The position numbers and the translations under genes are program-made. A stretch of DNA of 64,000 bases, from positions 1 to 64,000 of IMG/VR virus record IMGVR_UViG_3300032805_000003. The stretch is one strand, 5' to 3'. The stretch comes from a virus. Below, one piece after another: positions 1-47,722 of this stretch (within the stretch, counting starts at the first letter, position 1; each line of letters begins with the position of its first letter). The notes under the pieces were generated by a model, which saw nothing but the letters and a program-made list of their open reading frames with translations, was not told the origin of the DNA and did not search any database.

Positions 1-357
1 TTCTATGCCGCCGGTCACGCCGGTGAGGTGTTCCCGGTCGCGTTGTCCGGCGGGCTGACGGCGGCGGTGTCGATGGCCGGCGGCCAGTGGCTGTCAGATT
101 CAGACACCGGGCCGCTGGCAGCAGTCGCGATGGGAGCCGCCACACTGGCCGGCAGCGTGCTGCCAGCGATCCCGTACGCGTTCACCCGCACCCCGGCCGC
201 CCCGGTGCTGTCTGTGGCGCTCTGCGGGCTGGTGGCCTATGTGGTGGCCCGCCTGCGGCCGCATCGCCAGCATCCGCACCTCGAAACCTTCGGCATCCTG
301 ACCGTGATCCTGGCGGTTTCGGTTGCCTGTCTGCTGATCCTGCCCGGAGGGTCTTGA
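1..357 (+). CDS. small membrane protein of the lysis region (5'-partial)
   Basis: The frame is open from the left edge, so the start may lie outside the window; a GTG at 28 is the first in-frame candidate but has no clear ribosome binding site. The visible product is hydrophobic, with two to three potential membrane segments (roughly residues 5-20, 58-75 and 86-106 counted from the GTG) and a basic, His-rich loop between the last two. It is followed directly by the next gene (stop and ATG abut), which suggests translational coupling in the late lysis operon. A holin-type role is possible from position and topology but no family was recognised. Confidence 0.6.
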   Translation, partial: FYAAGHAGEVFPVALSGGLTAAVSMAGGQWLSDSDTGPLAAVAMGAATLAGSVLPAIPYAFTRTPAAPVLSVALCGLVAYVVARLRPHRQHPHLETFGILTVILAVSVACLLILPGGS

Positions 358-660
358 ATGGGTCACTGGCTGCTGCATCTGTGGTACATGCTGTCGGGCG
401 CGGACAACGAAGCCGGCCCGACGTACGGCACCTGGTCAGGGATCGCCGGCGCGACCGCGTGTTTCGCCTGGTTCCCGGCCGGGATGCTGTTGTACCGGCA
501 CCACAACTGTCACGAACCCTGGTGCCCGAGGATCGGCCGGCACACAGTCGGCGGGACACCGTTCCGGGCGTGCCGCCGACATCATCCCGAGCTCGCCAGC
601 CAGCCCAAGCCGAAACGCGGGCACATGACTGAAGCGTGGGACCGGGCGCGGGCCCGGTGA
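358..660 (+). CDS. small membrane protein, Cys/His-containing, lysis region
   Basis: A 100-residue product. ATG directly follows the upstream stop and a GGAGG lies about 8 bases before it. One membrane segment is visible near residues 26-45, followed by a Cys/His-rich soluble tail (NCHEPWCPRIGRH, then CRRHHPE) that could bind metal. Proteins of this pattern occur beside actinophage lysis genes, but I do not know a function. Its stop overlaps the GTG start of the potassium-channel gene, so the two are probably co-translated. Confidence 0.7.
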   Translation: MGHWLLHLWYMLSGADNEAGPTYGTWSGIAGATACFAWFPAGMLLYRHHNCHEPWCPRIGRHTVGGTPFRACRRHHPELASQPKPKRGHMTEAWDRARAR

Positions 661-1013
661 AACCAGCCTGGATCGCCGCCGCCGCCGGAACAGTTCTGGC
701 CGCTGGCGCTGTCGCCTACTCGGCTGTCGAGCATGTTCCGGTCAGCACCAGCTTGTACTGGGCGGTCGAAACCGGGACGACAGTCGGCTATGGCGACATC
801 ACCCCCCGCACCAGCGCTGGCCGGCTGGTCGCGTTGCTGGTGATGCTGACCGCGATCCCGCTCATGGGCGCGTTGTTCGCCGCGGTCACCAGCGCGCACC
901 TGGCCCGCCATCACCATCTTGACGAACTCCGGTCGACGGTCGAGAAAGCGCACCGGATCGCCGCCGACACTTACCGGCATCACACCGGCCAGGACCATCC
1001 CGACGCACCCTGA
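657..1013 (+). CDS. two-transmembrane potassium channel-like protein
   Basis: A 118-residue protein read from the GTG at 657 that overlaps the previous stop (an earlier in-frame GTG lies at 636). It has the layout of a KcsA-type pore subunit: first membrane helix (about residues 4-24), a short pore helix, the canonical K+ selectivity filter TVGYGD (about residues 49-54), and a second membrane helix (about 63-86), then a short charged cytoplasmic helix. Family knowledge: such subunits act as tetramers and conduct K+. What is seen is the intact filter; activity is inference. It sits between small membrane proteins and the endolysin, so it may help depolarise the membrane during lysis or infection. 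Confidence 0.85.
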   Translation: MKPAWIAAAAGTVLAAGAVAYSAVEHVPVSTSLYWAVETGTTVGYGDITPRTSAGRLVALLVMLTAIPLMGALFAAVTSAHLARHHHLDELRSTVEKAHRIAADTYRHHTGQDHPDAP

Positions 1014-1036
1014 CTGTCTCCTGGAGGACTGTCACC

Positions 1037-1429
1037 ATGCCGATCATCCGCAGCAAGTTCCGTACGCATGTCCTCGCCCAGCTGGCCGAGATCCGCACCA
1101 GCCAGGCTGAGATCCTGGCCCGCCTGGACAACCTCGCTTACCAGGCAGGCGGGCTGGCGAAGGCGTCGACGGCGACGACGATCCTGAACCAGCTGGCCGG
1201 CCTGGGCGCGCTGCTCGGCGACGACCAGGAAGTGACGCAGGAAGTCGTCGTCCATCTGAACGGCCTGGACGGCAAAGTCGACTTGCTGACCAGCTCGGTG
1301 TCGCATCTGGCGGCCGCCGCCCAGATCGTCCTCAGCCAGCCCGCCGCCGGCCCGGCGGAAACACCGGCGCCTGCGACTGAGCAGGCGTCTGCGGCACCGC
1401 AGGCGCGGCGGCGCGGCGCGCCCAGGTGA
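1037..1429 (+). CDS. hypothetical helical protein, lysis region
   Basis: A 130-residue product starting at ATG 1037 with a GGAGG 11 bases upstream. It is largely helical, with repeated Leu/Ala/Gln heptad-like stretches (residues 8-40 and 60-105) and an Ala/Pro-rich basic tail. No membrane segment is clear. Its stop overlaps the GTG of the next gene (GTGA). No family recognised; late lysis-operon membership is inferred from spacing and strand. Confidence 0.6.
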   Translation: MPIIRSKFRTHVLAQLAEIRTSQAEILARLDNLAYQAGGLAKASTATTILNQLAGLGALLGDDQEVTQEVVVHLNGLDGKVDLLTSSVSHLAAAAQIVLSQPAAGPAETPAPATEQASAAPQARRRGAPR

Positions 1430-1779
1430 ACCTGTTTCCGTGGCTGTGGGCGCACTGGTGGCCGCGTCTGTGGCCCGCGCTCGCCGGCGGCGGCGCCAGC
1501 CAGGTGATCACTTACTTCAAGCTGAAGGCCCGGATCGAAGCCCATCACCTGGCGCAAGACATCCGGGCGCGCCGGCTCGCCGGCGAAACCCGCGCTCACG
1601 CCGACCAGCTGGCCGCCGAACTGGCAGCCGGGCACAGAAAGCTGGCTGACGACCTGGCGGTTCTGGCCGAAACGATCCGTTCTGTCATGCGACACCGAGA
1701 GGACTCCCCGTTATGCGTGGCTGTGACTTTGCCTGGGGTGTGCGCCCGGGCCAGGAACGCGTCTTCGCGAAAGCGCTGA
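1426..1779 (+). CDS. membrane-anchored coiled-coil protein (holin/spanin-like position)
   Basis: A 117-residue product from the GTG overlapping the upstream stop. It has a Trp-rich N-terminal hydrophobic segment (residues 3-30) followed by a charged helix (about 33-90) with coiled-coil character. The last ~22 codons overlap the start of the endolysin gene in another frame, an unusually long overlap. One membrane anchor plus a coiled coil next to the endolysin fits an accessory lysis protein, but this is positional inference only. Confidence 0.55.
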   Translation: MNLFPWLWAHWWPRLWPALAGGGASQVITYFKLKARIEAHHLAQDIRARRLAGETRAHADQLAAELAAGHRKLADDLAVLAETIRSVMRHREDSPLCVAVTLPGVCARARNASSRKR

Positions 1780-2981
1780 AGGCGGCAGGGTTCGGGTTCG
1801 TCGTCCGGTACCTGTCCGCCGACCCGACCAAGAACCTGACCCGCGCCGAAGTGGCGGCGTACCAGGCGGAAGACCTGGCCATCGTCACCGTCTACGAAGA
1901 CGCCGCTGACGCGATGCTCGGCGGGGTGGCCACCGGCACTGAACAGGCGCGCCGGGCCAAAGCCCAGCTGGAGGCGCTGGGCGCACCCGAGCACGCTCCC
2001 GTTTTCTTCGCCGCCGACTTCCAGGTCACCCCCGAGCAGATGCCGGCGGTCGACGCTGCGCTGGACGCGACCGCGTTCGTGCTGTCCGAAACGCTGAACG
2101 GCATCTACGGCAGCTATGCGACGGTGTCGAAAGCCCAGCACGTCGCCTACCGGTGGCAGACGCTGGCCTGGTCAGCCGGGGTGTGGAACCCGAAAGACGT
2201 CCTCGAGCAGACCGGTGTCGCCAGCGGCGTGACCGACGGAGTCCAGTGGGATCTGGACGAGTCGAAAACACCGGACTTCGGCCAGTGGAAATGGCCGAAG
2301 TCTGCCGTCAGCCCTTCGCTGCAGCTAGGGTCGTCGGGCCCGGCGGTCACCGCTCTTCAGGCCAGGCTGAACAGCCTGGGCGCCAGGCCGAAGCTCACGG
2401 TCGACGGCTTGTTCGGACCGGAGACTGAAGCGGCGGTCAAAGCGTTCCAGAAAGCTCACCACCTGGTTGCTGACGGCATCGCCGGGCCGTTGACAACCGC
2501 TGCTCTGGACGCGCCGGCGCCGAAGAAGCCGTCGCCAGTCAAGAAGGCTGCCGCGGCGACGGCGGCCGTGGTGGTGATGAAGCCCGCAGCTATAGTCGCG
2601 GCGACGGTAGCGAAGGAGCCGGTGATGACGGCGGCGGGCGCGCAGGCGACGCTGGCGGCAGTGATCGGCTGGTGGGCGAAGAACGCCGGGTTGCATCTGA
2701 CGGTGACCCAGCAGCACGCCGCGCTGGTGATCGTCACCGCGCTCGCGGGCGCGGCCGCGGCCGCGGTCACCCGCCCGGCCCGGGTGACCGTGTTCTTCAC
2801 CGCCCTCGGCACTGCGGCGACCGCGGCCGGGGCGTTCGGGTTGCACATCTCGCCGCAATGGCTGGCGGCGGAAGCGCCGGTGGTGGCGTTGTTCGCTGGC
2901 GGGCTGTTGCGAGCGCATGTCTCGCCGGCGACGGTCGTCGCCGCGGTCAAGACAGCGACAGCGAAGGCTTCCGCCGGGTAG
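1713..2981 (+). CDS. endolysin: DUF1906 hydrolase + peptidoglycan-binding domain + C-terminal holin-like domain
   Basis: A 422-residue protein from ATG 1713 (GAGAGGA upstream). Residues 2-195 match the DUF1906 glycoside-hydrolase-like TIM-barrel family (GCDFAWG start, FVVRYLS, later TDGVQWD), expected to cut the glycan of peptidoglycan. Residues about 203-265 are a PG_binding_1 repeat (LQARLNSLG, DGLFGPETEAAVKAFQ). After a Lys/Ala/Pro linker, residues about 305-422 contain three hydrophobic segments like a small actinophage holin, which is unusual at the end of an endolysin. An in-frame ATG with a strong AAGGAG lies at 2625 (separate entry). A strong terminator follows. Confidence 0.88.
   Translation: MRGCDFAWGVRPGQERVFAKALKAAGFGFVVRYLSADPTKNLTRAEVAAYQAEDLAIVTVYEDAADAMLGGVATGTEQARRAKAQLEALGAPEHAPVFFAADFQVTPEQMPAVDAALDATAFVLSETLNGIYGSYATVSKAQHVAYRWQTLAWSAGVWNPKDVLEQTGVASGVTDGVQWDLDESKTPDFGQWKWPKSAVSPSLQLGSSGPAVTALQARLNSLGARPKLTVDGLFGPETEAAVKAFQKAHHLVADGIAGPLTTAALDAPAPKKPSPVKKAAAATAAVVVMKPAAIVAATVAKEPVMTAAGAQATLAAVIGWWAKNAGLHLTVTQQHAALVIVTALAGAAAAAVTRPARVTVFFTALGTAATAAGAFGLHISPQWLAAEAPVVALFAGGLLRAHVSPATVVAAVKTATAKASAG
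2625..2981 (+). CDS. putative nested holin, in-frame internal start of the endolysin gene
   Basis: Inside the endolysin frame an ATG at 2625 is preceded by AAGGAG at 2613-2618, a 6-base spacing that is optimal for initiation. It would give a 118-residue product with three hydrophobic segments (about residues 35-53, 58-78 and 83-99) and a basic C-terminus, which is the size and topology of actinophage holins. Whether the holin is made separately, only as the fusion, or both cannot be decided from sequence. Confidence 0.55.
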   Translation: MTAAGAQATLAAVIGWWAKNAGLHLTVTQQHAALVIVTALAGAAAAAVTRPARVTVFFTALGTAATAAGAFGLHISPQWLAAEAPVVALFAGGLLRAHVSPATVVAAVKTATAKASAG

Positions 2982-3010
2982 CCTGAACGCGCTGTCACCG
3001 GGTACAACTG

Positions 3011-3053
3011 AACCGGCCCGCCCCCTGTGATGGGGGGCGGGCCGGTTCTTTTT
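3011..3053 (+). terminator. rho-independent terminator after the lysis cassette
   Basis: A perfect 15-bp stem (3011-3025 with 3033-3047) with a 7-base loop is followed by CTTTTT. It ends the rightward late transcript 30 bases after the endolysin stop and faces the convergent leftward gene. Confidence 0.93.
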
Positions 3054-3117
3054 GCGTGCCCTCACTACCGTCCGGCGGCCGCACGTTATGACCCGCGAAA
3101 CGACAGCACTTCCACCC

Positions 3118-3501
3118 TCATGCAGATGCCCCTCTCGCGATGCGCCGACGACGCTCCCACCAGTGCTCACGACGGAAGCTAATGAAGCCGGGCGACCTGG
3201 GTGCGATCGGGCCAGTGCTTACCCACGCCCGGCCGCATTCGCACTCCCAGACGGTGCCCTTCGGGTACAGCCGCGCATCCGGAGGGTAGGCGCGGCGCAT
3301 GCCGTCCGGCAGGGGCGCCATCATGGGGGACAAGCCCACGGGTACATCTGCGCCGGGCTCGCTGTAAGTCCAGCCAGGCGCGCAGTGGTGGCGTTGCGCG
3401 GGCGTAGCCACGATCTGACCGCTCATCCCTCTACCTGCTGGGTGGCGTCGTGCGAGGTCGTCTTGGTGTATTGGTTCCTCCGGCTGTCTGGTTACGGGCA
3501 C
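3118..3501 (-). CDS. hypothetical protein with CxC motif
   Basis: Two starts are possible: GTG 3501, overlapping the upstream gene's stop by 10 bases (127 residues), or ATG 3426 (102 residues). Conserved-looking features are a WECECG motif and a Trp/Arg-rich basic tail, suggesting a small metal or nucleic-acid binding protein. It is the last gene of the leftward 3.1-6.7 kb operon. No family recognised. Confidence 0.55.
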   Translation of the reverse strand: MPVTRQPEEPIHQDDLARRHPAGRGMSGQIVATPAQRHHCAPGWTYSEPGADVPVGLSPMMAPLPDGMRRAYPPDARLYPKGTVWECECGRAWVSTGPIAPRSPGFISFRREHWWERRRRIARGASA

Positions 3502-4370
3502 GGCACTGCGGCCGGGGTGAACTGGCTGTAGGTCCAGCGGCCGAATCCGTCCGGGTAGCCGAGCCGCAGAGTCGTCCCCCGGGTGGTGATGAACGACACG
3601 CTTTCCAGCGGCTGGATCGTCAGCGGCTGCCCGTACCGGCGCCAGTGACCGTCTTTCAGCCGGGTCGACGCGTAGAACGTCACCGCCGGGCCGTCCAGGC
3701 TGGTGACCTGCCAGCGCCGGTGACTGTAGCTGCCGCAGGCGCGGGTGGCGGCCAGCACGTTCGGCTGGATGCCGGGGACCAGCTGCTGCCCGTCCCAGGT
3801 GAACGACTCGATCACCGCGGTGTACGACGCCGGCTGGCTGGCGTCAGCGACCAGGTACGCCGTCTTCAGCCCGCCCAGGCCGTGGATGTAGGTCTGGACC
3901 TGCGCCCAGGTGGCGTCGTAGCTGTTCGGGCTGGTGCCGAGAGACCAGCAGATCCCGCCGGCCGGGTCGGCGCACAGCGACGGGTCCGGGTAGCCGGTCG
4001 CGTCGTTGCCGACTGAATCCGGGCCGATCTCGGGCGCGAGCTCCAGCCGGGGCGTGCCGGATCCGTAGCCGAGGACGGTCATCGCCGGAGGCTGGGTGGT
4101 GGCGATGTCCCGCCGGGCGCCGGTGACAGTGACGGTGACGCTGCTGATGCTGGAATGGATTGCCATCAGCAGCGACGGATGGTTGGTGCCGGTGTTCCAG
4201 TTCGCTTCGGCGTATCCGGTGCCCGGGTTGATCGTCAGGCTGTAGCCGGGTGCGGTGGCCGCGTTCGTGGCCTGGACGAACGCCAGAGTGACGGACGCGA
4301 CGATGGCGAGGACGGCTGCGGCGAAGGCAGCGAGAGCGGCGAGCTTGTTGCGCGCGGGCTGGCGATGCAC
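3492..4370 (-). CDS. secreted or membrane-anchored protein of unknown function
   Basis: A 292-residue protein starting at GTG 4370 with AAAGGA 8-13 bases upstream. Residues 1-36 are a basic N-region followed by a hydrophobic helix, a signal peptide or signal anchor. The rest is rich in Ser/Thr/Gly/Tyr with few lysines and several Cys (SLCADPAGGICW), typical of an exported beta-rich domain. No known domain recognised. As an exported product in an operon near the integrase, it is a candidate surface-altering (lysogenic conversion) protein. Confidence 0.65.
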   Translation of the reverse strand: MHRQPARNKLAALAAFAAAVLAIVASVTLAFVQATNAATAPGYSLTINPGTGYAEANWNTGTNHPSLLMAIHSSISSVTVTVTGARRDIATTQPPAMTVLGYGSGTPRLELAPEIGPDSVGNDATGYPDPSLCADPAGGICWSLGTSPNSYDATWAQVQTYIHGLGGLKTAYLVADASQPASYTAVIESFTWDGQQLVPGIQPNVLAATRACGSYSHRRWQVTSLDGPAVTFYASTRLKDGHWRRYGQPLTIQPLESVSFITTRGTTLRLGYPDGFGRWTYSQFTPAAVPCP

Positions 4371-4407
4371 CTTGTTTGCTTCCTTTCAGGTAGGTCAGTA
4401 GTGCGGG

Positions 4408-7354: not shown

Positions 7355-8740
7355 ATGAGAGACCCGGTCTACAAACGCTGCCTGTGCCGTGAGGACGGCC
7401 GCGAGCTCGGCGCCAGCTGCCCCCGGCTGAAGCGCAAAGACGGCTCCTGGAACCCGAAACACGGCTCCTGGTACTTCTCGCTGGAACTGCCGAAAGGCGC
7501 GGGCGGGACACGCCGGCGCCGGCTGCGCCGCGGCGGGTACGACAGCCGCGAAGACGCCTTCGCCGCCCTCGATGAAGCACGCCGCCAGCTGGAACACGGC
7601 GCGGACCCGTCAGTCCGGATCACCGTGGGGGAGTACCTGGAAAGCTGGATCCGGCGCCGTGTCGACCTGAAGCCGACGACTGCCCGGAACTACGGCCTGG
7701 TCGTCAGCACGTACCTGCTGCCGTTGCTCGGCCACCTCGAGCTGGCCCGGTTGCAGACCGGGGATGTCGCAGACATGTTCGGCGTGATCCGCGGCTGGAA
7801 CGACCAGCTGGCCGCCGGCGAGCGGGTGCGCAAATACCAGCGGCACGTCGGGCCGGCCGCGATGCAGCGGATCCGGGCCACACTGCGGGTGGCGCTCGCC
7901 GACGCCGTCGACGAAGGGCTGATCAGCTTCAACCCGGCAGTCCGGGTCCGGATGGAACGCGAAACCGCGCGCAAACCAGTGATCTGGACCGCTGAACGGG
8001 CCAGCGTGTTCTGGGCCGTCTACCAGCAGGCAGTCGAAGCCGAGCCGATGGGCCGCGGCGACCGGGCGTTCCGGGTCTGGAGCCGGATGGACCTGCGGCC
8101 CGCGCCGGTGATGGTCTGGACCCCGGCGGACATGGGCCGGTTCCTGGATCACGCTGGCGGGCACCGGCTGGCGACCTTGTTCGAGCTCGTCGCCGCCACC
8201 GGGATGCGCCGCGGTGAAGCGTGCGGGCTGCGGTGGGAAGACGTCGACCTGGATAACGGGATGCTGTCGATCGGGCGGGCCCGCGTCCAGGTCGGCTGGC
8301 AGGTCGTCGACCAGGACCCGAAATCGGAAGCCAGTAAACGCGAGGTCGCGATCGCCGGTCATGCGGTGACCGCGCTGCGGGCCTGGCGCAAGCAACAGCT
8401 GGCGGACCGGCTGGCGTGGGGGAGTGACTACACCGAAACCGGGCTGGTGTTCACCCGCGAGGACGGCAAACCCTGGCATCCGGATGCGGTCACCGAGGCG
8501 TTTGAACGGCTGGCGTTCGGTGCCGGGCTGCCGCCGGTCAAGTTGCACGGGCTACGGCACGGGTGGGCGACGTACGCGGTAGCCCAGGGTGTCGACATCA
8601 AGCTGGTGCAAGCCGGGCTCGGGCATTCGACCAGCCGGCTGACCCGCGACACCTACACCGGTGTCCTCAGCGACCAGGCAAGGGAAGCGGCCGAGAAGGT
8701 CGCCCAGATCATTCCGCGCCGGGGACGTGACCATGGCTGA
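7355..8740 (+). CDS. int: tyrosine integrase
   Basis: A 461-residue phage integrase. An N-terminal arm-binding part (about residues 1-70, RGGYDSREDAFAALDEARRQ) is followed by a SAM-like core-binding domain (about 80-200) and the catalytic domain, with visible catalytic residues: GMRRGEACGLRW (Arg I), LHGLRHGWATY (His-x-x-Arg with the second His replaced by Trp-A-T-Y context) and GHSTSRLTRDTY (final His and nucleophile Tyr). It should integrate the phage into the host chromosome. The candidate attP, a tRNA-Thr 3' half, is 1.4 kb downstream. Confidence 0.95.
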   Translation: MRDPVYKRCLCREDGRELGASCPRLKRKDGSWNPKHGSWYFSLELPKGAGGTRRRRLRRGGYDSREDAFAALDEARRQLEHGADPSVRITVGEYLESWIRRRVDLKPTTARNYGLVVSTYLLPLLGHLELARLQTGDVADMFGVIRGWNDQLAAGERVRKYQRHVGPAAMQRIRATLRVALADAVDEGLISFNPAVRVRMERETARKPVIWTAERASVFWAVYQQAVEAEPMGRGDRAFRVWSRMDLRPAPVMVWTPADMGRFLDHAGGHRLATLFELVAATGMRRGEACGLRWEDVDLDNGMLSIGRARVQVGWQVVDQDPKSEASKREVAIAGHAVTALRAWRKQQLADRLAWGSDYTETGLVFTREDGKPWHPDAVTEAFERLAFGAGLPPVKLHGLRHGWATYAVAQGVDIKLVQAGLGHSTSRLTRDTYTGVLSDQAREAAEKVAQIIPRRGRDHG

Positions 8741-39738: not shown

Positions 39739-40476
39739 TCAGGCGTTCATGTCCATGTCGTACAGAACCAGCAGCCCCGGACCCTGGAAACGTTCGACAG
39801 CGCCGTTGTCGAATTGCACTATCCACCGGCCGTCGTCGCCCCGGCCGGTGACCCGGCCTTGCCCGTAGTTCTCGGCGAACACCCGGGCTCCTTCCTCGAG
39901 CACCGGCTTCTCCCGGGTCATCCATACCGGCACCGGCGCCGAGAACATCTCCCGCGCCTCCGGATCCGGCCCGGCCGGGAGCCGGAACAGCGCGCCGGAT
40001 CGTTTCCCGGGGACTTCAGCGACCCGGACGAGCTCGGCGCCCTGGCGCTGGTACCAGGCCCGCAGCGGGGCGGCGTCATCCAGCCGGTACACATCCAGCC
40101 GCAGCCAGGGAATCCCGGCCTGGTGCGCCTGGTCTGCCGCCCACCGCAGCATCGGCCCGCCGAGTCCCCGGCCCCAGGCCAGGGATGTCGCCATCTTGGA
40201 GACGTACATCGCCGGCTCGGCCAGCTCTTCGCGGGTCCAGAAGCCCGGGTCGCCCTGCGGCGACAAGGTGATCGTCCCGGCGATCCGGTTGTCGTCTTCG
40301 CGCATCGTCAGCCAGGTCCAGCCCTGTGCGACGATCGACGCGACCCGGGCGTGCGAAACCAGGTCACCGTCCCACTGGCTGGATCCGCGTTCCCGCAGCC
40401 AGCTGGCGCGTTCTCGCAACAGCCGCTGGACGTCGAACCGGCGCCCGGAAGTAGCCGGGTACATGACATATCTCAT
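39739..40476 (-). CDS. GNAT-family acetyltransferase
   Basis: A 245-residue product from ATG 40476. N-terminal ~170 residues follow the GNAT fold: RIAGTITLSPQGDP, MYVSKMATSLAWGRGLGGPM (acetyl-CoA loop R/Q-x-x-G-x-G/A, here AWGRGLGG), IPWLRLDVYRLDDAAPLRAWYQRQGA. A C-terminal ~75-residue beta-rich extension (VTGRGDDGRWIVQFDNGAVE) is additional. It is the downstream partner of the GntR gene (4-base overlap), a pairing common on actinomycete plasmids and integrating elements. Confidence 0.88.
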   Translation of the reverse strand: MRYVMYPATSGRRFDVQRLLRERASWLRERGSSQWDGDLVSHARVASIVAQGWTWLTMREDDNRIAGTITLSPQGDPGFWTREELAEPAMYVSKMATSLAWGRGLGGPMLRWAADQAHQAGIPWLRLDVYRLDDAAPLRAWYQRQGAELVRVAEVPGKRSGALFRLPAGPDPEAREMFSAPVPVWMTREKPVLEEGARVFAENYGQGRVTGRGDDGRWIVQFDNGAVERFQGPGLLVLYDMDMNA

Positions 40477-41240
40477 CCTGGTAGCTCCGCAATCAGCCGG
40501 GCCCGGTCAGCAGGCCAGATCGTTACCGTCAGCTTGAGCGGCCGCCCGTCGCCGGTCCGGCCGGTGGTGTACTGGACGATCACCGGAACGCCTTGCGGGA
40601 TCCGCAGCTGCTCGGCTTCGCCGCGGGTCGGCATCCGTGCCTCGAATTCGTAAACGAAGACGTCTTGCTCCAGCCCGTGCTCGCGCATCAGCAAGATCAC
40701 GCCCTGGGGCACGTCAGCCGGGTGCATGATCTGCGGGATCTGGCCGGCGACGTCCATCGGGTAGAACGTATCCGACAGGTTGTGCGGGTCGCCGTCTACA
40801 GTCCGCAGATGATGCCGGACCAGCACCGCGTCGCCTTGCTTGATCCCGAGCCGGCGGGCGACTTCCGCGTCAGCGTCGTCGATCCGGACCATGATCGCCT
40901 GCTGGCCTGGTTCGCGGCCCAGGTCCCGGACGTCTGTCATCCAGGCGTCCCGGCCTGCGCTGCGGCGCTGGTCCGCGCGGGCTCGCGTTTCGGACTGGGC
41001 GAACGGGACCGTCAGCGGTTCGTGTTTCCGGACGCGCCGTGGCCGGCCTTGCCCGGGTGTGGTGATCAGCCCGTCGTGTTCCAGGTCGCCGAGCGCTTTC
41101 CGGATAGTGTCCCGCGAGTACCCGTACCGGCTCATCAGATCCTGCTCGGACGGGAACGAGTCATCGGGGGCCAGGTCGCCAGCGTCGATGCGGTCACGCA
41201 GGTCGTCGTAGACCTCACGGCGCTTGGACCGTTCGGTCAC
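40473..41240 (-). CDS. GntR-family (HutC/KorSA-type) transcriptional regulator
   Basis: A 255-residue product; GTG 41240 has GGAGGT 6 bases upstream. N-terminal winged helix: VYDDLRDRIDAGDLAPDDSF, PSEQDLMSRYGYSRDTIRKAL, GLITTPGQGRPRRV. The C-terminal UTRA-type ligand domain includes LGIKQGDAVLVRHHLRTVDG and VPVIVQYTTGRTG. In pSAM2-type elements such regulators (KorSA) repress their own and transfer genes. Repeats of GTACGTACAAG just upstream are likely operators. Confidence 0.9.
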   Translation of the reverse strand: MTERSKRREVYDDLRDRIDAGDLAPDDSFPSEQDLMSRYGYSRDTIRKALGDLEHDGLITTPGQGRPRRVRKHEPLTVPFAQSETRARADQRRSAGRDAWMTDVRDLGREPGQQAIMVRIDDADAEVARRLGIKQGDAVLVRHHLRTVDGDPHNLSDTFYPMDVAGQIPQIMHPADVPQGVILLMREHGLEQDVFVYEFEARMPTRGEAEQLRIPQGVPVIVQYTTGRTGDGRPLKLTVTIWPADRARLIAELPG

Positions 41241-42920: not shown

Positions 42921-43814
42921 ATGCACATCTTCCTCGCTCTCGCGATCCTGGGGCTGGCGGTGTACGGCGCTGGCGCTATGACGACCCGCATGGTCCGGCA
43001 CGTCGCCAGCAGCGCCAGCAGCACCCCCGGCGCGAAGCGAGTCGCCGGCCAGGTCCAGCAACGCGGCCGCGCCGCCCGGGGTGCCGCCGGAACCAGAAGC
43101 AAGCAAGCTGCTCAAGTCGGCCAGCGGCGGATCAGCGAGATCTGGCATGAAGCGTTCGCTTTGAACTGGCTGGAGAAACACCGGGCCCGCCGGGCGGCGA
43201 ACCCGGGCAGCGTGCGGCCAGTCCGGCAGCGCGTCACTGAATGGATCGGCGCTCGCCGCAAGCCGCCAGCCTCGGGCAGTCAGCCACAGCAGCCGATCGC
43301 GCCACCAGGACCATCCAGCACGCTGGGCGGGGCCATGCCACCGCCCGCGGCCAAGCCTGCCGCCCCGGCCGCGCATCCCGCGCCGGCTACCCACTCGCCT
43401 TCGCACCCGCCGTCGACTAACGGAAAGGCTCCTACTCCGATGACCCAGCCCGTCAGCGCCCCCCCTGTCTCCGGAGCATCCGGAGACCTGTTCACCGCCG
43501 CCAACCAGCTCGTCGGATCCTCCCTCGCCGGCGGGATGCAGTCCAAGCGCCGCGGTGTGCACACCCTCGCCGAAGCAGTCGACTACTTCGCGAACCTGCT
43601 CCACCAGTTCTCGTCCCGGCTGGCCGAACCCGACCAGGGATATCCGGCGGCCGTGTGGGAGCCGATCGCCCAGGCTGCCGCGCATCTCAAGGGATGCGGC
43701 TCCAAGCTCGGCGAATCCGACACCGCGCTCGCCACCCTCGCGAACACGCCGATGGGCGACGTCGCGACCTCTACCGTCAAGTCGCCTCACCACGACCAGG
43801 TGAACAGTGAGTAA
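42921..43814 (+). CDS. membrane-anchored protein with conserved C-terminal domain, upstream of ftsK-like gene
   Basis: A 297-residue product from ATG 42921 (GAAAGGA upstream). N-terminal membrane helix (FLALAILGLAVYGAGAM), a basic region, a Pro/Ala-rich linker, and a helical C-terminal domain (residues about 185-290: LFTAANQLVGSSLAGG, HTLAEAVDYFANLLHQF, GCGSKLGESDTALATLA). Its stop overlaps the translocase start, suggesting a partner of that protein. Confidence 0.65.
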   Translation: MHIFLALAILGLAVYGAGAMTTRMVRHVASSASSTPGAKRVAGQVQQRGRAARGAAGTRSKQAAQVGQRRISEIWHEAFALNWLEKHRARRAANPGSVRPVRQRVTEWIGARRKPPASGSQPQQPIAPPGPSSTLGGAMPPPAAKPAAPAAHPAPATHSPSHPPSTNGKAPTPMTQPVSAPPVSGASGDLFTAANQLVGSSLAGGMQSKRRGVHTLAEAVDYFANLLHQFSSRLAEPDQGYPAAVWEPIAQAAAHLKGCGSKLGESDTALATLANTPMGDVATSTVKSPHHDQVNSE

Positions 43815-45858
43815 GACCGCCGCCCCCCCGCACCCGCCCCAGAGCTTGCCCGGCAAGCCCAGGTTCACCTGGCTCGTGCCGCTGTGGATGCGACGTCACC
43901 GGCATCTGACCGTGCCGCTCCTGCTTGTCCCGGCCGTCTTCCCGGCTGCCGGGCTAGCGCTGCACACCAGCCGCTGGCGGGCCGAAACGCTGATCGCCTC
44001 CGGTGTCGTCCTGGCCTGCGTCTGGTTCTTCGCCCCCCACAAATGGGACCGCCCGGCGGAACGCTTCTACGCGATCGCGTCCGTCGCCGCCGCCGGCGGC
44101 TGGCTGACGTTCGCCGCCTACCGCGGCTTCAGCCGGTGGACCTGGATCGCCGCCGTCGTCCTCGCCGCCCTCTGGGGAGTGCCGTGGTGGTGGCACAAGC
44201 GGGTGCGCTTGTACTCGAGCTCGGCCCGCCTGGTCCGGTCCTGGAACAGCTGGTGGCAGGCCAACTCGCATCTGTGGAACGGCCAGGGCTCTGGTGTGAT
44301 CGACCTTGACCCGCGCCGGGACGTCGAAGAGCTCCGGATCCAGCTGGTCCCCGGCGTCCACCATGCTGAGGTGGTCAAAGACTGGCTGCCGCGGATCGAA
44401 TCCGCGCTTCAGGGCTATGTCCGGCACGGGATGGTCCGCGGCCAGGTCGACCCGCGCAACCCGTCTCAGGCGCTGATCCAGCTGCGCCGCGAGAACCCGC
44501 TCCGCGACGACGTCGAATGGGATCCGAAGCAAGCCCCGTCGACGATCACCCAGCCGGCGCCGATCGGGAAACACGGCGCCGGTAACTGGGTCAAGACGTT
44601 GCTGCTGCGTAACTGGTTCGTCCTCGGGATGACCCGCTGGGGCAAGTCGAACTGGCTGTCAGCGTTCCTGGCTACCGTCAGCCAGTGCGACGACGCGCTG
44701 CCCTGGCTGATCGACATGAAAGGCGGCCGGGCGACCCGCCCCTGGCTGCCCGCCCTGGACTGGGCCGCGGTGACGATCGACGAAGCCCGCCTGCTGCTCG
44801 GCTGCGCGCTGGCCGAGATCCAGGCCCGCGCTGAAGACGCCGAATCCGAAACCGAGCAGCTGGAGCCGACCCCGGAAGTCCCGGCCCTGTTCGTGATCAT
44901 CGACGAGACGCATGAGGTGACGTCGCTGCCGGTCGGTGACACCGAATGCGCGGTCCAGCTGTCGCGGGTGGTATCCCTCGGCAACGGCCTGGCGGTCTAC
45001 GGGGTGGTGGCGACACAGTACGGGTCGCTGGACGAGTCGGTCCGGTTCGCCCAGACCCGCGCGAACCTGGACGGCCGGGTCTGCTTCCATGTCGCCTCCA
45101 GCCGCGACGGCCAGTTCGCGCTGGAAGACTGGGCGAAGCTGGACGCGTCCCGCCTGGACGTCCCCGGCTCGTTCTATTACCAGCTCGGCGCTCGGGCGTC
45201 TGTCGAAGACGCCAAAGGCCCGCACATGCCGCACGCTCTTGTCCGGATGATCGCCGCGGCGAACGGCAAGCTGCGGGCCAGCCGGCCGCCGCTGCGGCTG
45301 TATTGCGGTGACCGGCCGATCAGCGACCAGCCGGGTGCGCCGACCTGGCAGCAGGTCTACGACGACCGGTGGAGGCGGTTGCCGGCCAAGTTCTGGAAAG
45401 ACGCCCCGCAGTGCGACGGGCTGGCCGTCCCGGGCCCGGCCTCTCCCCCGGTCGCAGCCCCGGCACCGTCGCCGGCTGCAGCCGGGCTGGCCGCCGACGC
45501 CGCGGCGATCGCCGCCCGGATCGAAGCTGACATCGCCGGCACCCCGGATATCAACCCGGGGCAGCTGGCGCGGATCCCGTCCGAGATCGAGCTCGAAACC
45601 GAGACGCTGCGCAAGATGGCCATGTTCGCTCGCTTGCTGACCGACGCCGACCCGCACATCACCCCGAAGGATCTTGTGAGCAAGTCGGGGATGTCGCGGG
45701 CGTGGATCATGGCGATGCTGCCTGATCTGGTCACAGACGAGGTTGTGATCAACTCTGGCAAGGGCCAGTACCGGGCAGTGCCGGGTGCTGACGTCTGGGC
45801 TGCTATCGAGGCCATCCGGGACCGGCGGGCCAGGTCGCTGACCGGGGCGACAGCCTGA
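43807..45858 (+). CDS. FtsK/SpoIIIE-type DNA translocase, TraB-like
   Basis: A 683-residue protein from GTG 43807. Four membrane helices in residues about 38-130, then an ATPase: Walker A GMTRWGKSN (about 277-285), IDMKGG, and Walker B LFVIIDETHEV. The C-terminus (about 600-683) is a winged helix (ITPKDLVSKSGMSRAWIMAM). Family knowledge: TraB of Streptomyces plasmids is such an FtsK-like pump that moves double-stranded DNA between cells and reads 8-bp repeats at clt through its winged helix. An 8-bp repeat array follows this gene directly. Confidence 0.9.
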   Translation: MSKTAAPPHPPQSLPGKPRFTWLVPLWMRRHRHLTVPLLLVPAVFPAAGLALHTSRWRAETLIASGVVLACVWFFAPHKWDRPAERFYAIASVAAAGGWLTFAAYRGFSRWTWIAAVVLAALWGVPWWWHKRVRLYSSSARLVRSWNSWWQANSHLWNGQGSGVIDLDPRRDVEELRIQLVPGVHHAEVVKDWLPRIESALQGYVRHGMVRGQVDPRNPSQALIQLRRENPLRDDVEWDPKQAPSTITQPAPIGKHGAGNWVKTLLLRNWFVLGMTRWGKSNWLSAFLATVSQCDDALPWLIDMKGGRATRPWLPALDWAAVTIDEARLLLGCALAEIQARAEDAESETEQLEPTPEVPALFVIIDETHEVTSLPVGDTECAVQLSRVVSLGNGLAVYGVVATQYGSLDESVRFAQTRANLDGRVCFHVASSRDGQFALEDWAKLDASRLDVPGSFYYQLGARASVEDAKGPHMPHALVRMIAAANGKLRASRPPLRLYCGDRPISDQPGAPTWQQVYDDRWRRLPAKFWKDAPQCDGLAVPGPASPPVAAPAPSPAAAGLAADAAAIAARIEADIAGTPDINPGQLARIPSEIELETETLRKMAMFARLLTDADPHITPKDLVSKSGMSRAWIMAMLPDLVTDEVVINSGKGQYRAVPGADVWAAIEAIRDRRARSLTGATA

Positions 45859-46071: not shown

Positions 46072-46740
46072 ATGCTCGGTCGTGAACACGCCCTGTCCGG
46101 GCTAGCCGCCGGGCTGGCCGTCGCCGGGCTCGGGCTGCATCTGCACACCGGCCCGCTGCTGGCGCTGGCTGCCGGAACCGGCGCGTTCGCCACCGTCCCG
46201 GACATGGACACCCTCCATTCGTGCGCCGCCCGGTCGCTCGGTTTCCTGTCCGAAGCGTTCGCCTTGCTGATCGAAAAACTGTCGGGCGGGCACCGGCACG
46301 CCACCCACAGCCTGCTCGGCGTCGCGGTGTTCACCCTGGACGCCCAGATAGCGTGCTATTACCGGCATGACCCGGGCGGCCGGATCGGCCTCGGCCTGGT
46401 CCTGGCGATCGCGCTGGCCGCAGGCCTGCGCGCGCTGCATGTCCACCGGAACCTGGCTGACCTGCTCGCGCTGCCCGCCGCCGCGGCGATCGCGGTAACC
46501 GGCTGGAACCTCGAGCTGGTGCCGCTGGCGTGCGGCCTGGGCTGCCTGACGCACATCACCGGAGACATGCTGACCACCGAAGGCTGCCCGCTGGCCTGGC
46601 CGGTGACGCTCAAGCATTACCGGCTGCTGCCCGGCCCGCTGGATTTCACCACCGGCACCTGGCGCGAAACCTGGGTCGTGTTCCCCAGCCTGCTGGGAGC
46701 GATCGGGTTGCTCGGTTACCTGGCTGTGACAACACACTGA
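46072..46740 (+). CDS. YdjM-like membrane-bound metal-dependent hydrolase
   Basis: A 222-residue product from ATG 46072. Motifs REHALSGLAAGLAVA, FATVPDMDTLHS, and GHRHATHSLLG followed by several membrane helices fit the YdjM/DUF457 family with metal-binding His and Asp. Members are membrane hydrolases of unclear substrate, often in mobile elements and under DNA-damage control. A late ITGDMLTTEGCPLAWP motif adds conserved Asp. Confidence 0.82.
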   Translation: MLGREHALSGLAAGLAVAGLGLHLHTGPLLALAAGTGAFATVPDMDTLHSCAARSLGFLSEAFALLIEKLSGGHRHATHSLLGVAVFTLDAQIACYYRHDPGGRIGLGLVLAIALAAGLRALHVHRNLADLLALPAAAAIAVTGWNLELVPLACGLGCLTHITGDMLTTEGCPLAWPVTLKHYRLLPGPLDFTTGTWRETWVVFPSLLGAIGLLGYLAVTTH

Positions 46741-46777
46741 CCAGATGTCCTCCGCTACCCCCGGGAAAGGCGCGACC

Positions 46778-47722
46778 ATGGCTGACATGGCAGACAACAC
46801 CCCCGCGCACGCCGTCCGCCCGCGTTCGTTCGAACCGGAACAGAAAGCTGTCCTCGCGCTCCTGATCGCCGTCGTCGCAGTGATCCTGGTTGCCTACGGG
46901 GCGGCCGCGTCGTACGACAACCTGTGGCATCTGGCGCTCGCCCGCGGTGTGCCGTTGCCGCGGCTGATGCCGGTCGGGCTGGACGGCGGCCTGATCGGCA
47001 CCGTCGCCCTGGACCTGGCGCTCACATGGGCCGGATACCCGCTGTGGTGGCTGCGGTGGATCGCCCGCCTGTTCGCGTTCGCGACGATCGCCGCCAACGC
47101 TCTGGCGGGCTGGCCGAACCCGGTAGGCATGTTCCTGCGGATGGCCGCCCCGGCGCTGATCGTCGTCATCACTGAAGCTGTCCGGGCAGTGTTGCTCAAG
47201 CGGCGGCGGGAGATCGCCAGCGACCGGATCCCGGGTGCCCGCTGGCTGCTGGCACCACGGCAGACGTTCGCGATGTGGAAGCGGATGAAGCTGTGGAACA
47301 TCACCGTCTACAGCAAGGCAGTCACGATGGAGCTCGCCCGGCTGCGCGCGATCGAGGCGCTAGCCGACTATTACAAGACGCGGGACTGGCGCGCGCTAGC
47401 GCCCGGGTCGCTGGTCTGGATGCTGGACGCGGGTGTCCACATGGACGACGCGCTGGCGGCTGTGGCGGTTCTCACCGCCCCGCCAGAAGCCTCGCCAGAA
47501 CAGACGCCAAAGGCCCGCCAGAAGCCTCGCCAAACCAGCCGCCAGAACGCTCGCCAGAAGCCTCGCCAGGAGACCGCCGCCGCGCGCGAAAAGGCGAAGC
47601 GTCTCATGACCGACGACTGGACGATGCCGCTGGCGGATGTGGCCGCCCAGACCGGGTTGTCCGAGCGGACCGTCAGCCGGGTCCGGAGCCAGATGCCCCG
47701 CCCGCTCCGGTCCACAGGATGA
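46778..47722 (+). CDS. DUF2637 (SpdB-like) membrane protein with C-terminal helix-turn-helix
   Basis: A 314-residue product; ATG 46778 has AAAGG 8 bases upstream. Residues about 25-140 are the DUF2637 membrane domain (AASYDNLWHLALARGVPLP, PVGLDGGLIGTVALDL) with four helices, typical of actinomycete plasmid transfer/spread proteins. After a Gln/Arg/Lys-rich repeat segment the C-terminus is a helix-turn-helix (LADVAAQTGLSERTVSRVRS). Supports the view that this block derives from plasmid transfer genes. Confidence 0.85.
   Translation: MADMADNTPAHAVRPRSFEPEQKAVLALLIAVVAVILVAYGAAASYDNLWHLALARGVPLPRLMPVGLDGGLIGTVALDLALTWAGYPLWWLRWIARLFAFATIAANALAGWPNPVGMFLRMAAPALIVVITEAVRAVLLKRRREIASDRIPGARWLLAPRQTFAMWKRMKLWNITVYSKAVTMELARLRAIEALADYYKTRDWRALAPGSLVWMLDAGVHMDDALAAVAVLTAPPEASPEQTPKARQKPRQTSRQNARQKPRQETAAAREKAKRLMTDDWTMPLADVAAQTGLSERTVSRVRSQMPRPLRSTG
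47481..47570 (+). repeat. direct repeats CGCCAGAA in the DUF2637 gene
   Basis: CGCCAGAA occurs at 47481, 47493, 47516, 47540 and 47552, partly within longer units (CGCCAGAAGCCTCGCCA three times). It encodes a RQK/RQN-rich linker. Could be a simple coding repeat or a second set of DNA recognition sites. Confidence 0.6.

Follow-up and report, generated by a model that had tools for sequence, protein, structure and literature searches.

A KcsA-like potassium channel gene paired with a Cys/His membrane protein gene in the late operon of a soil phage

Introduction

Why would a phage carry, shortly before its endolysin gene, a gene for a potassium channel? This question is raised by a small open reading frame near the start of the DNA analysed here (the window, 64,000 nt, positions 1 to 64,000 of IMG/VR record IMGVR_UViG_3300032805_000003). 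In a preliminary description, the channel was placed in the lysis cassette and its role there was held to be new, with collapse of the membrane potential to trigger lysis, or a block of superinfection, as its proposed role. Phage K+ channels as such had already been listed by Greiner et al. 2018 (PMC6163359), in Myrna, Phabba, BillNye, ventosus, ME3 and vibriophages, with their function called speculative, and potassium-channel genes have been noted in desert soil viruses (PMC8269230). The lysis cassettes of actinophages often hold several proteins with 1-4 transmembrane segments (TM), as in Gordonia phages (PMC9671378), and LysF1a has two such segments, with both termini inside (PMC13056207). 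What is new here is not the presence of a phage K+ channel but its setting.

Results

A KcsA-type pore module with an intact filter

The limits of the channel reading frame are exact in translation, from GTG at 657 to TGA at 1013. Its product matches Pfam Ion_trans_2 (PF07885) at 9e-17 and 61 bits, against a cut-off of 22.5 bits, and its sequence matches in the PDB are KcsA, TOK1 and K2P chains. An AlphaFold2 model (monomer, ten relatives in the input, mean pLDDT 88.7) has TM1 at residues 3-25, a pore helix at 29-41, the filter, and a long helix at 53-110 that comprises TM2 and the C-terminal helix. The top Foldseek match of this model is KcsA, over 92 columns at an rmsd of 1.2 A and 32% identity, with a TM-score of 0.83 by target length. 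Given these Pfam, PDB and fold matches, the likeness is not due to chance. The selectivity filter TTVGYGD is intact at residues 41-47, and the pore signature, LYWAVETGTTVGYGDI, is like that of KcsA, including the Glu ahead of the filter, so that both the TM1-pore helix-TM2 fold and the T-x-G-Y-G-D filter of 2-TM K+ channels (KcsA-type, PF07885) are present. The preliminary description of a 118-residue protein with a two-helix pore layout and an exact TVGYGD filter is borne out, and since the filter is intact, K+ conduction is the likely activity in this phage, as judged from sequence. No holin family match was found for the channel in Pfam or PHROG.

The end of the late operon

All genes lie on the + strand from the structural genes via the tail genes to the endolysin, and the operon ends with two 1-TM proteins, a 230-aa protein, a VIT1-like protein, a Cys/His membrane protein (CHHP), the channel, a 130-aa protein, an Rz-like protein, the endolysin and a hairpin (Table 1). 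Three terminator-like sites were found in the region against 1.8 expected, the stem at 3010-3048 being the longest by far. The channel lies close to the endolysin in the same late operon, on the same strand and ahead of this hairpin. Junctions between genes are tight (TGAATG at 355-360, GTGA at 657-660 and GTGA at 1426-1429): the ATG of CHHP directly follows the stop codon of the VIT1-like gene, the start of the channel overlaps the stop of CHHP, and the Rz-like gene overlaps both of its neighbours. The channel gene is thus in the lysis region and, by its overlap, predicted to be translationally coupled to CHHP. Co-translation with small membrane proteins, as proposed earlier, holds on the 5' side, where the gene for the 4-TM VIT1-like protein precedes CHHP; that the channel precedes the endolysin also stands, with the qualification that two small genes lie between them. 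The first of these, encoding the 130-aa protein, had no match in Pfam or PHROG. The C-terminal extension of the endolysin, of about 130 residues, carries hydrophobic segments and has no Pfam or PHROG match; it might hold the protein in the membrane or represent a fused holin-like part.

Table 1. Features at the end of the late operon and elsewhere in the phage genome (window positions unless stated otherwise)
Feature	Position	Strand	Basis or remark
Two 1-TM proteins	87,098-87,825 of the record	+	Followed by a 230-aa protein, then the VIT1-like gene
VIT1-like 4-TM protein, 144 aa	88,734 of the record across the circular junction to 357 (C-terminal part 1-357)	+	PF01988
CHHP, ~100-aa Cys/His membrane protein	358-660	+	Alignment, recurring gene pair
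KcsA-type K+ channel pore module, 118 aa, TTVGYGD filter, His-rich C-terminal helix	657-1013	+	Translation, PF07885, AlphaFold, Foldseek
130-aa protein, no predicted TM, coiled-coil-like by eye	1037-1429	+	Own GGAGG ribosome-binding site
117-aa protein, hydrophobic N-terminus, rest coiled-coil-like, weakly Rz-like spanin	1426-1779	+	phrog_1403 7e-4
Endolysin, Rv2525c-type glycoside hydrolase, PG_binding_1 and C-terminal tail	1713-2981	+	PF08924 6.9e-18, PF01471 8.6e-19, phrog_13480 2.5e-25
Terminator-like hairpin (18 bp, T tail) that closes the late operon	3010-3048	+	
Integrase	7355-8740		
GntR-UTRA regulator	40473-41240	-	Plasmid-like stretch
683-aa 2-TM protein	43807-45858		No Pfam match; plasmid-like stretch
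YdjM	46072-46740		Plasmid-like stretch
DUF2637 protein	46745-47722		Plasmid-like stretch

The record is 88,938 nt long and its two ends share an exact 127-nt repeat; the genome of 88,811 bp (68% GC, 128 ORFs with a simple gene caller) is therefore circular or circularly permuted. Genes for the terminase, portal, major head protein and tape measure are clearly recognised, and by its gene content, integrase included, the phage is a complete temperate siphovirus. Host contamination as the source of the channel was ruled out, since the gene shares one circular record with these four genes, the integrase and the endolysin. A stretch within the phage (39739-47722) resembles those on actinomycete plasmids or integrative elements.

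A recurring partner

When viral contigs were scanned with the channel alone, 80 loci were obtained, eleven of them with a CHHP homolog directly upstream. The combined CHHP alignment was too diverse for a contig scan and two sub-alignments were used instead, which gave 56 loci. After removal of near-copies, 40 loci, counting the window, had both CHHP and a channel homolog and a further 13 had CHHP alone, a pairing rate of 40/53 that is biased upward by the building of the sub-alignments from channel-paired copies. Many database hits were channels of hosts, located at the edges of prophages or in Firmicutes (L004-L065 type), and these were excluded from the cassette counts. The pair is therefore found in 39 further viral contigs, in 26 of which the two genes share the 4-nt start/stop overlap seen in the window, and in one locus (L084) the two are fused in a single ORF. 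None of the isolate phages searched carries the pair, nor were the CHHP and VIT1-like genes found in them by single-sequence searches. Sugar-nucleotide epimerase-like and glycosyltransferase-like genes were seen by eye near the cassette in several large soil phages (L003, L060, L068, L070, L074).

The CHHP tail carries an invariant, zinc-ribbon-like motif, CH-x(3,4)-C / C-x2-H, whose residues C51, H52, C56, C72 and H75 are unchanged in all ten sequences of its alignment (A1); a model of the protein (pLDDT 78) gave no significant match in a fold search. The VIT1-like protein of the window scores 5.9e-6 and 26.7 bits against PF01988, below the cut-off of 28.1, and its homolog in L068 passes the Pfam VIT1 cut-off at 1.3e-10. 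This gene adjoins the CHHP-channel pair in at least 11 of the 40 loci (nine relatives, L002 and the window), and so in at least ten viral contigs besides the window. The protein has the form of a half-length transporter with four predicted TM. CHHP also occurs in Actinomycetota chromosomes, in 4 of 396 genomes (L224-L227), and no channel lay beside it in the short loci fetched from these four. In L227, CHHP is followed with a 4-nt overlap by an 88-aa protein that has one hydrophobic segment and a coiled-coil-like tail.

Placement of the pair

Only four of the 40 loci were found directly beside an endolysin, a rate that is a lower bound because the search covered four endolysin families and many of the contigs are incomplete. 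Besides the window these are L014, where a GH25 endolysin ORF begins at the channel stop, L095, with a PG_binding_1 ORF next to the channel, and L106, with an Amidase_2 ORF there; these three were the only relatives with a directly adjacent endolysin of the four families. A GH25 gene lies about 3.4 kb from the cassette in L003 and L060, and the 40 records contained no CHAP domain. Elsewhere, with neighbour roles assigned partly by eye, the pair is upstream of a terminase gene (L067, L096, L097, L103, L110, L111) or lies between genes of the head-tail connector and those of the tail (L003, L060, L074, L076, L085, L086, L092, L098, L099, L102, L140). The stable partner of the channel in its relatives is thus CHHP, not the lysis genes, and proximity to an endolysin of the four families is not conserved among them.

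Repeated loss of the filter under purifying selection

Occurrence in related phages had been suggested as a check; 39 uncultured relatives carry the pair, and the filter is lost from almost half of the cassette channels. GYGD is kept in 22 of the 40 and the GYG filter is lost in 18, at least one TVGYGD residue being gone; the variants include TVGGDV, TLGGDV, TDGCDL, TVGC-D, TAGADI and TTSGNS. Among the ten cassette channels of a further alignment (A2), the filter is invariant while the rest of the protein has 26-44% identity. With the filter columns removed before tree building, the filter state changed at least five times, three of these changes being forced by well-supported branches (74 alignment columns kept, many forks open). 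The dN/dS ratio, by a simple counting method that is rough in such GC-rich DNA, was 0.24-0.56 for intact pairs and 0.12-0.52 for filterless pairs. Decay into pseudogenes was ruled out for the filterless members by the latter values, which indicate purifying selection. Because the filter was lost and the gene is still under purifying selection, K+ conduction would be dispensable for the cassette in the filterless phages, and the role of the channel family cannot be K+ flow alone. Among filterless channels such as L092, L093, L097, L098, L103, L110, L111 and L127, many combine a pore-helix Cys with a second Cys where the filter was lost (GLYC...GC, GVYC...GCD), and others have the pore-helix Cys only. 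The two Cys might be joined by a disulfide that spans the pore loop.

Origin of the cassette channels and likely host

In a tree with 30 host channels and no algal-virus rows, the 40 cassette channels form one group with a chromosomal channel of an Actinomycetes MAG (L144), apart from the other sampled channels (support 100/99). L144 lies inside the cassette clade, and a clade of the 40 cassette channels alone is also compatible with the data (p-AU 0.609). That L144, the best chromosomal match, belongs to a prophage was ruled out by its longer C-terminal domain and its chromosomal neighbours, e.g., an Era-type GTPase (by eye). Algal-virus channels did not emerge as the closest relatives, since the best structural matches were to KcsA and those to algal-virus channels were weak. 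The high GC, the actinobacterial channel within the cassette clade and the presence of CHHP-like genes in Actinomycetota (4 of 396 genomes) make an actinomycete the likely host.

Discussion

The late position, the coupling of the channel with CHHP and the VIT1-like gene that recurs beside the pair lead us to read the locus as a late membrane-modulation or ion-handling cassette whose intact members conduct K+, a reading to which we give a probability of about 0.5. Counted in its favour are the fold and intact filter, the run of the late operon from structural genes to endolysin and terminator-like hairpin, the occurrence of the pair in 40 loci, the well-supported clade of the cassette channels, the purifying selection and the three further endolysin-adjacent relatives; counted against it are the 18 of 40 members without a filter and the position of most relatives away from an endolysin. 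Under the cassette reading, a K+-selective, KcsA-like tetrameric pore would be produced late in the host cytoplasmic membrane together with CHHP, which is likely an accessory or regulatory subunit and may contact the channel; some phages would add a VIT1-like cation transporter. Late in infection, the cassette would alter the state of the host membrane, setting its K+ permeability and hence turgor and voltage, the latter near the K+ equilibrium potential. Placed inside the lysis operon, as here, it would most likely affect the conditions under which holin-like proteins are triggered, and a part in lysis timing in this phage is possible.

By established biophysics, a pore selective for K+ drives the voltage towards the equilibrium potential of this ion, strongly negative at low external K+; it also lets K+ and turgor fall. 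The pore alone does not collapse the proton motive force, and a depolarising trigger therefore needs more than the channel, so that the proposed collapse of the membrane potential does not follow from a pore of this kind. For this reason we consider it unlikely that the channel depolarises the cell and thereby sets off the holin and lysis: its place two genes upstream of the endolysin, the three further independent endolysin-adjacent relatives (L014, L095, L106) and the triggering of actinophage holins by loss of the proton motive force (PMC13056207) would all suit such a trigger, but most relatives are outside a lysis cassette and almost half have no filter. The channel could instead exclude superinfection or block incoming DNA through a changed K+ content or potential, its lysis-operon position being incidental. 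This has a precedent in the chlorovirus channel Kcv of algae, where the host is depolarised and a second infection prevented (PMC7019647), and the several late-region sites of the cassette are as expected for an added gene set; a late gene, however, comes too late for most exclusion, and there was no sign of prophage expression, with no promoter-like site in 1-4400 (a weak test), which leaves exclusion improbable as well.

The filterless members bear on another account, in which the selected function is structural or signalling, as a partner of CHHP or a holin-like 2-TM oligomer, with K+ conduction an ancestral property kept by some. Loss of the filter in 18 of 40 through at least five changes, with purifying selection and the same operon retained, is what this account would predict, but 22 of 40 keep GYGD at 26-44% identity, which points to selection on K+ selectivity there, the window channel included; we regard it as possible, if doubtful. 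A moron, that is, an acquired host channel with no lytic role that might, e.g., help a lysogen under osmotic or ionic stress in soil, would accord with the temperate nature of the phage (integrase), with K+-channel genes among the stress-related genes of desert soil viruses (PMC8269230) and with the channels in the lysogeny regions of the isolate phages JNU_P5 and Dulem virus 33. We think this improbable, however, as the channel sits within the late operon with apparent translational coupling, and the pair has persisted across a large divergence and so was not recently acquired. Extending the cassette reading to its relatives, we suggest tentatively that soil phages, probably actinobacterial, share a late VIT1-like/CHHP/channel cassette in which a KcsA-derived channel was recruited for infection control and repeatedly turned into a filterless, non-K+ form, lysis control being one of its uses.

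No function has been known for phage K+ channels since their listing in 2018, and a conserved partner and a VIT1-like neighbour provide testable partners for them. The natural filterless members are built-in controls, which allow intact and filterless versions of the same cassette to be compared directly. Such repeated filter loss in genes kept by purifying selection would amount to an unusual experiment of nature on functions of the pore module other than K+ conduction.

Comparison with known systems

KcsA is the pH-gated K+ channel of Streptomyces. With it and other bacterial 2-TM channels of PF07885, the window channel shares the TM1-pore helix-TTVGYGD-TM2 layout, the fold and a C-terminal cytoplasmic helix, and with KcsA itself also the pore signature (SVET/AVET..TTVGYGD) with the Glu preceding the filter; it differs from KcsA in being phage-encoded in a late operon and coupled to CHHP, with a shorter N-terminus and a His-rich C-terminus. 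The K+ channels of isolate phages are likewise small 2-TM channels of tailed phages, with a GYGD- or GFGD-type filter, but the five whose records were checked are all outside lysis cassettes, in metabolic, tRNA-rich, accessory or lysogeny regions, and have no CHHP alongside. The chlorovirus channel Kcv is also a miniature viral K+ channel with little beyond the pore module, whereas it comes from a eukaryotic virus, acts at entry as a virion membrane protein, and has neither a lysis operon nor a CHHP or VIT1 partner; its structural match to the window channel is weak. The holin-like 1-4 TM proteins of actinophages (PMC9671378; LysF1a/b, PMC13056207) are similar as small membrane proteins clustered with an endolysin, but no pore helix or K+ filter has been described for them, and the channel has no holin family match. 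In the open-access literature we found no paper on the CHHP-channel pair, its VIT1-like neighbour or its filterless members, and it is this setting that is new here: a K+ channel of a known type in a pairing with CHHP, beside a VIT1-like gene and with filterless members among its relatives.
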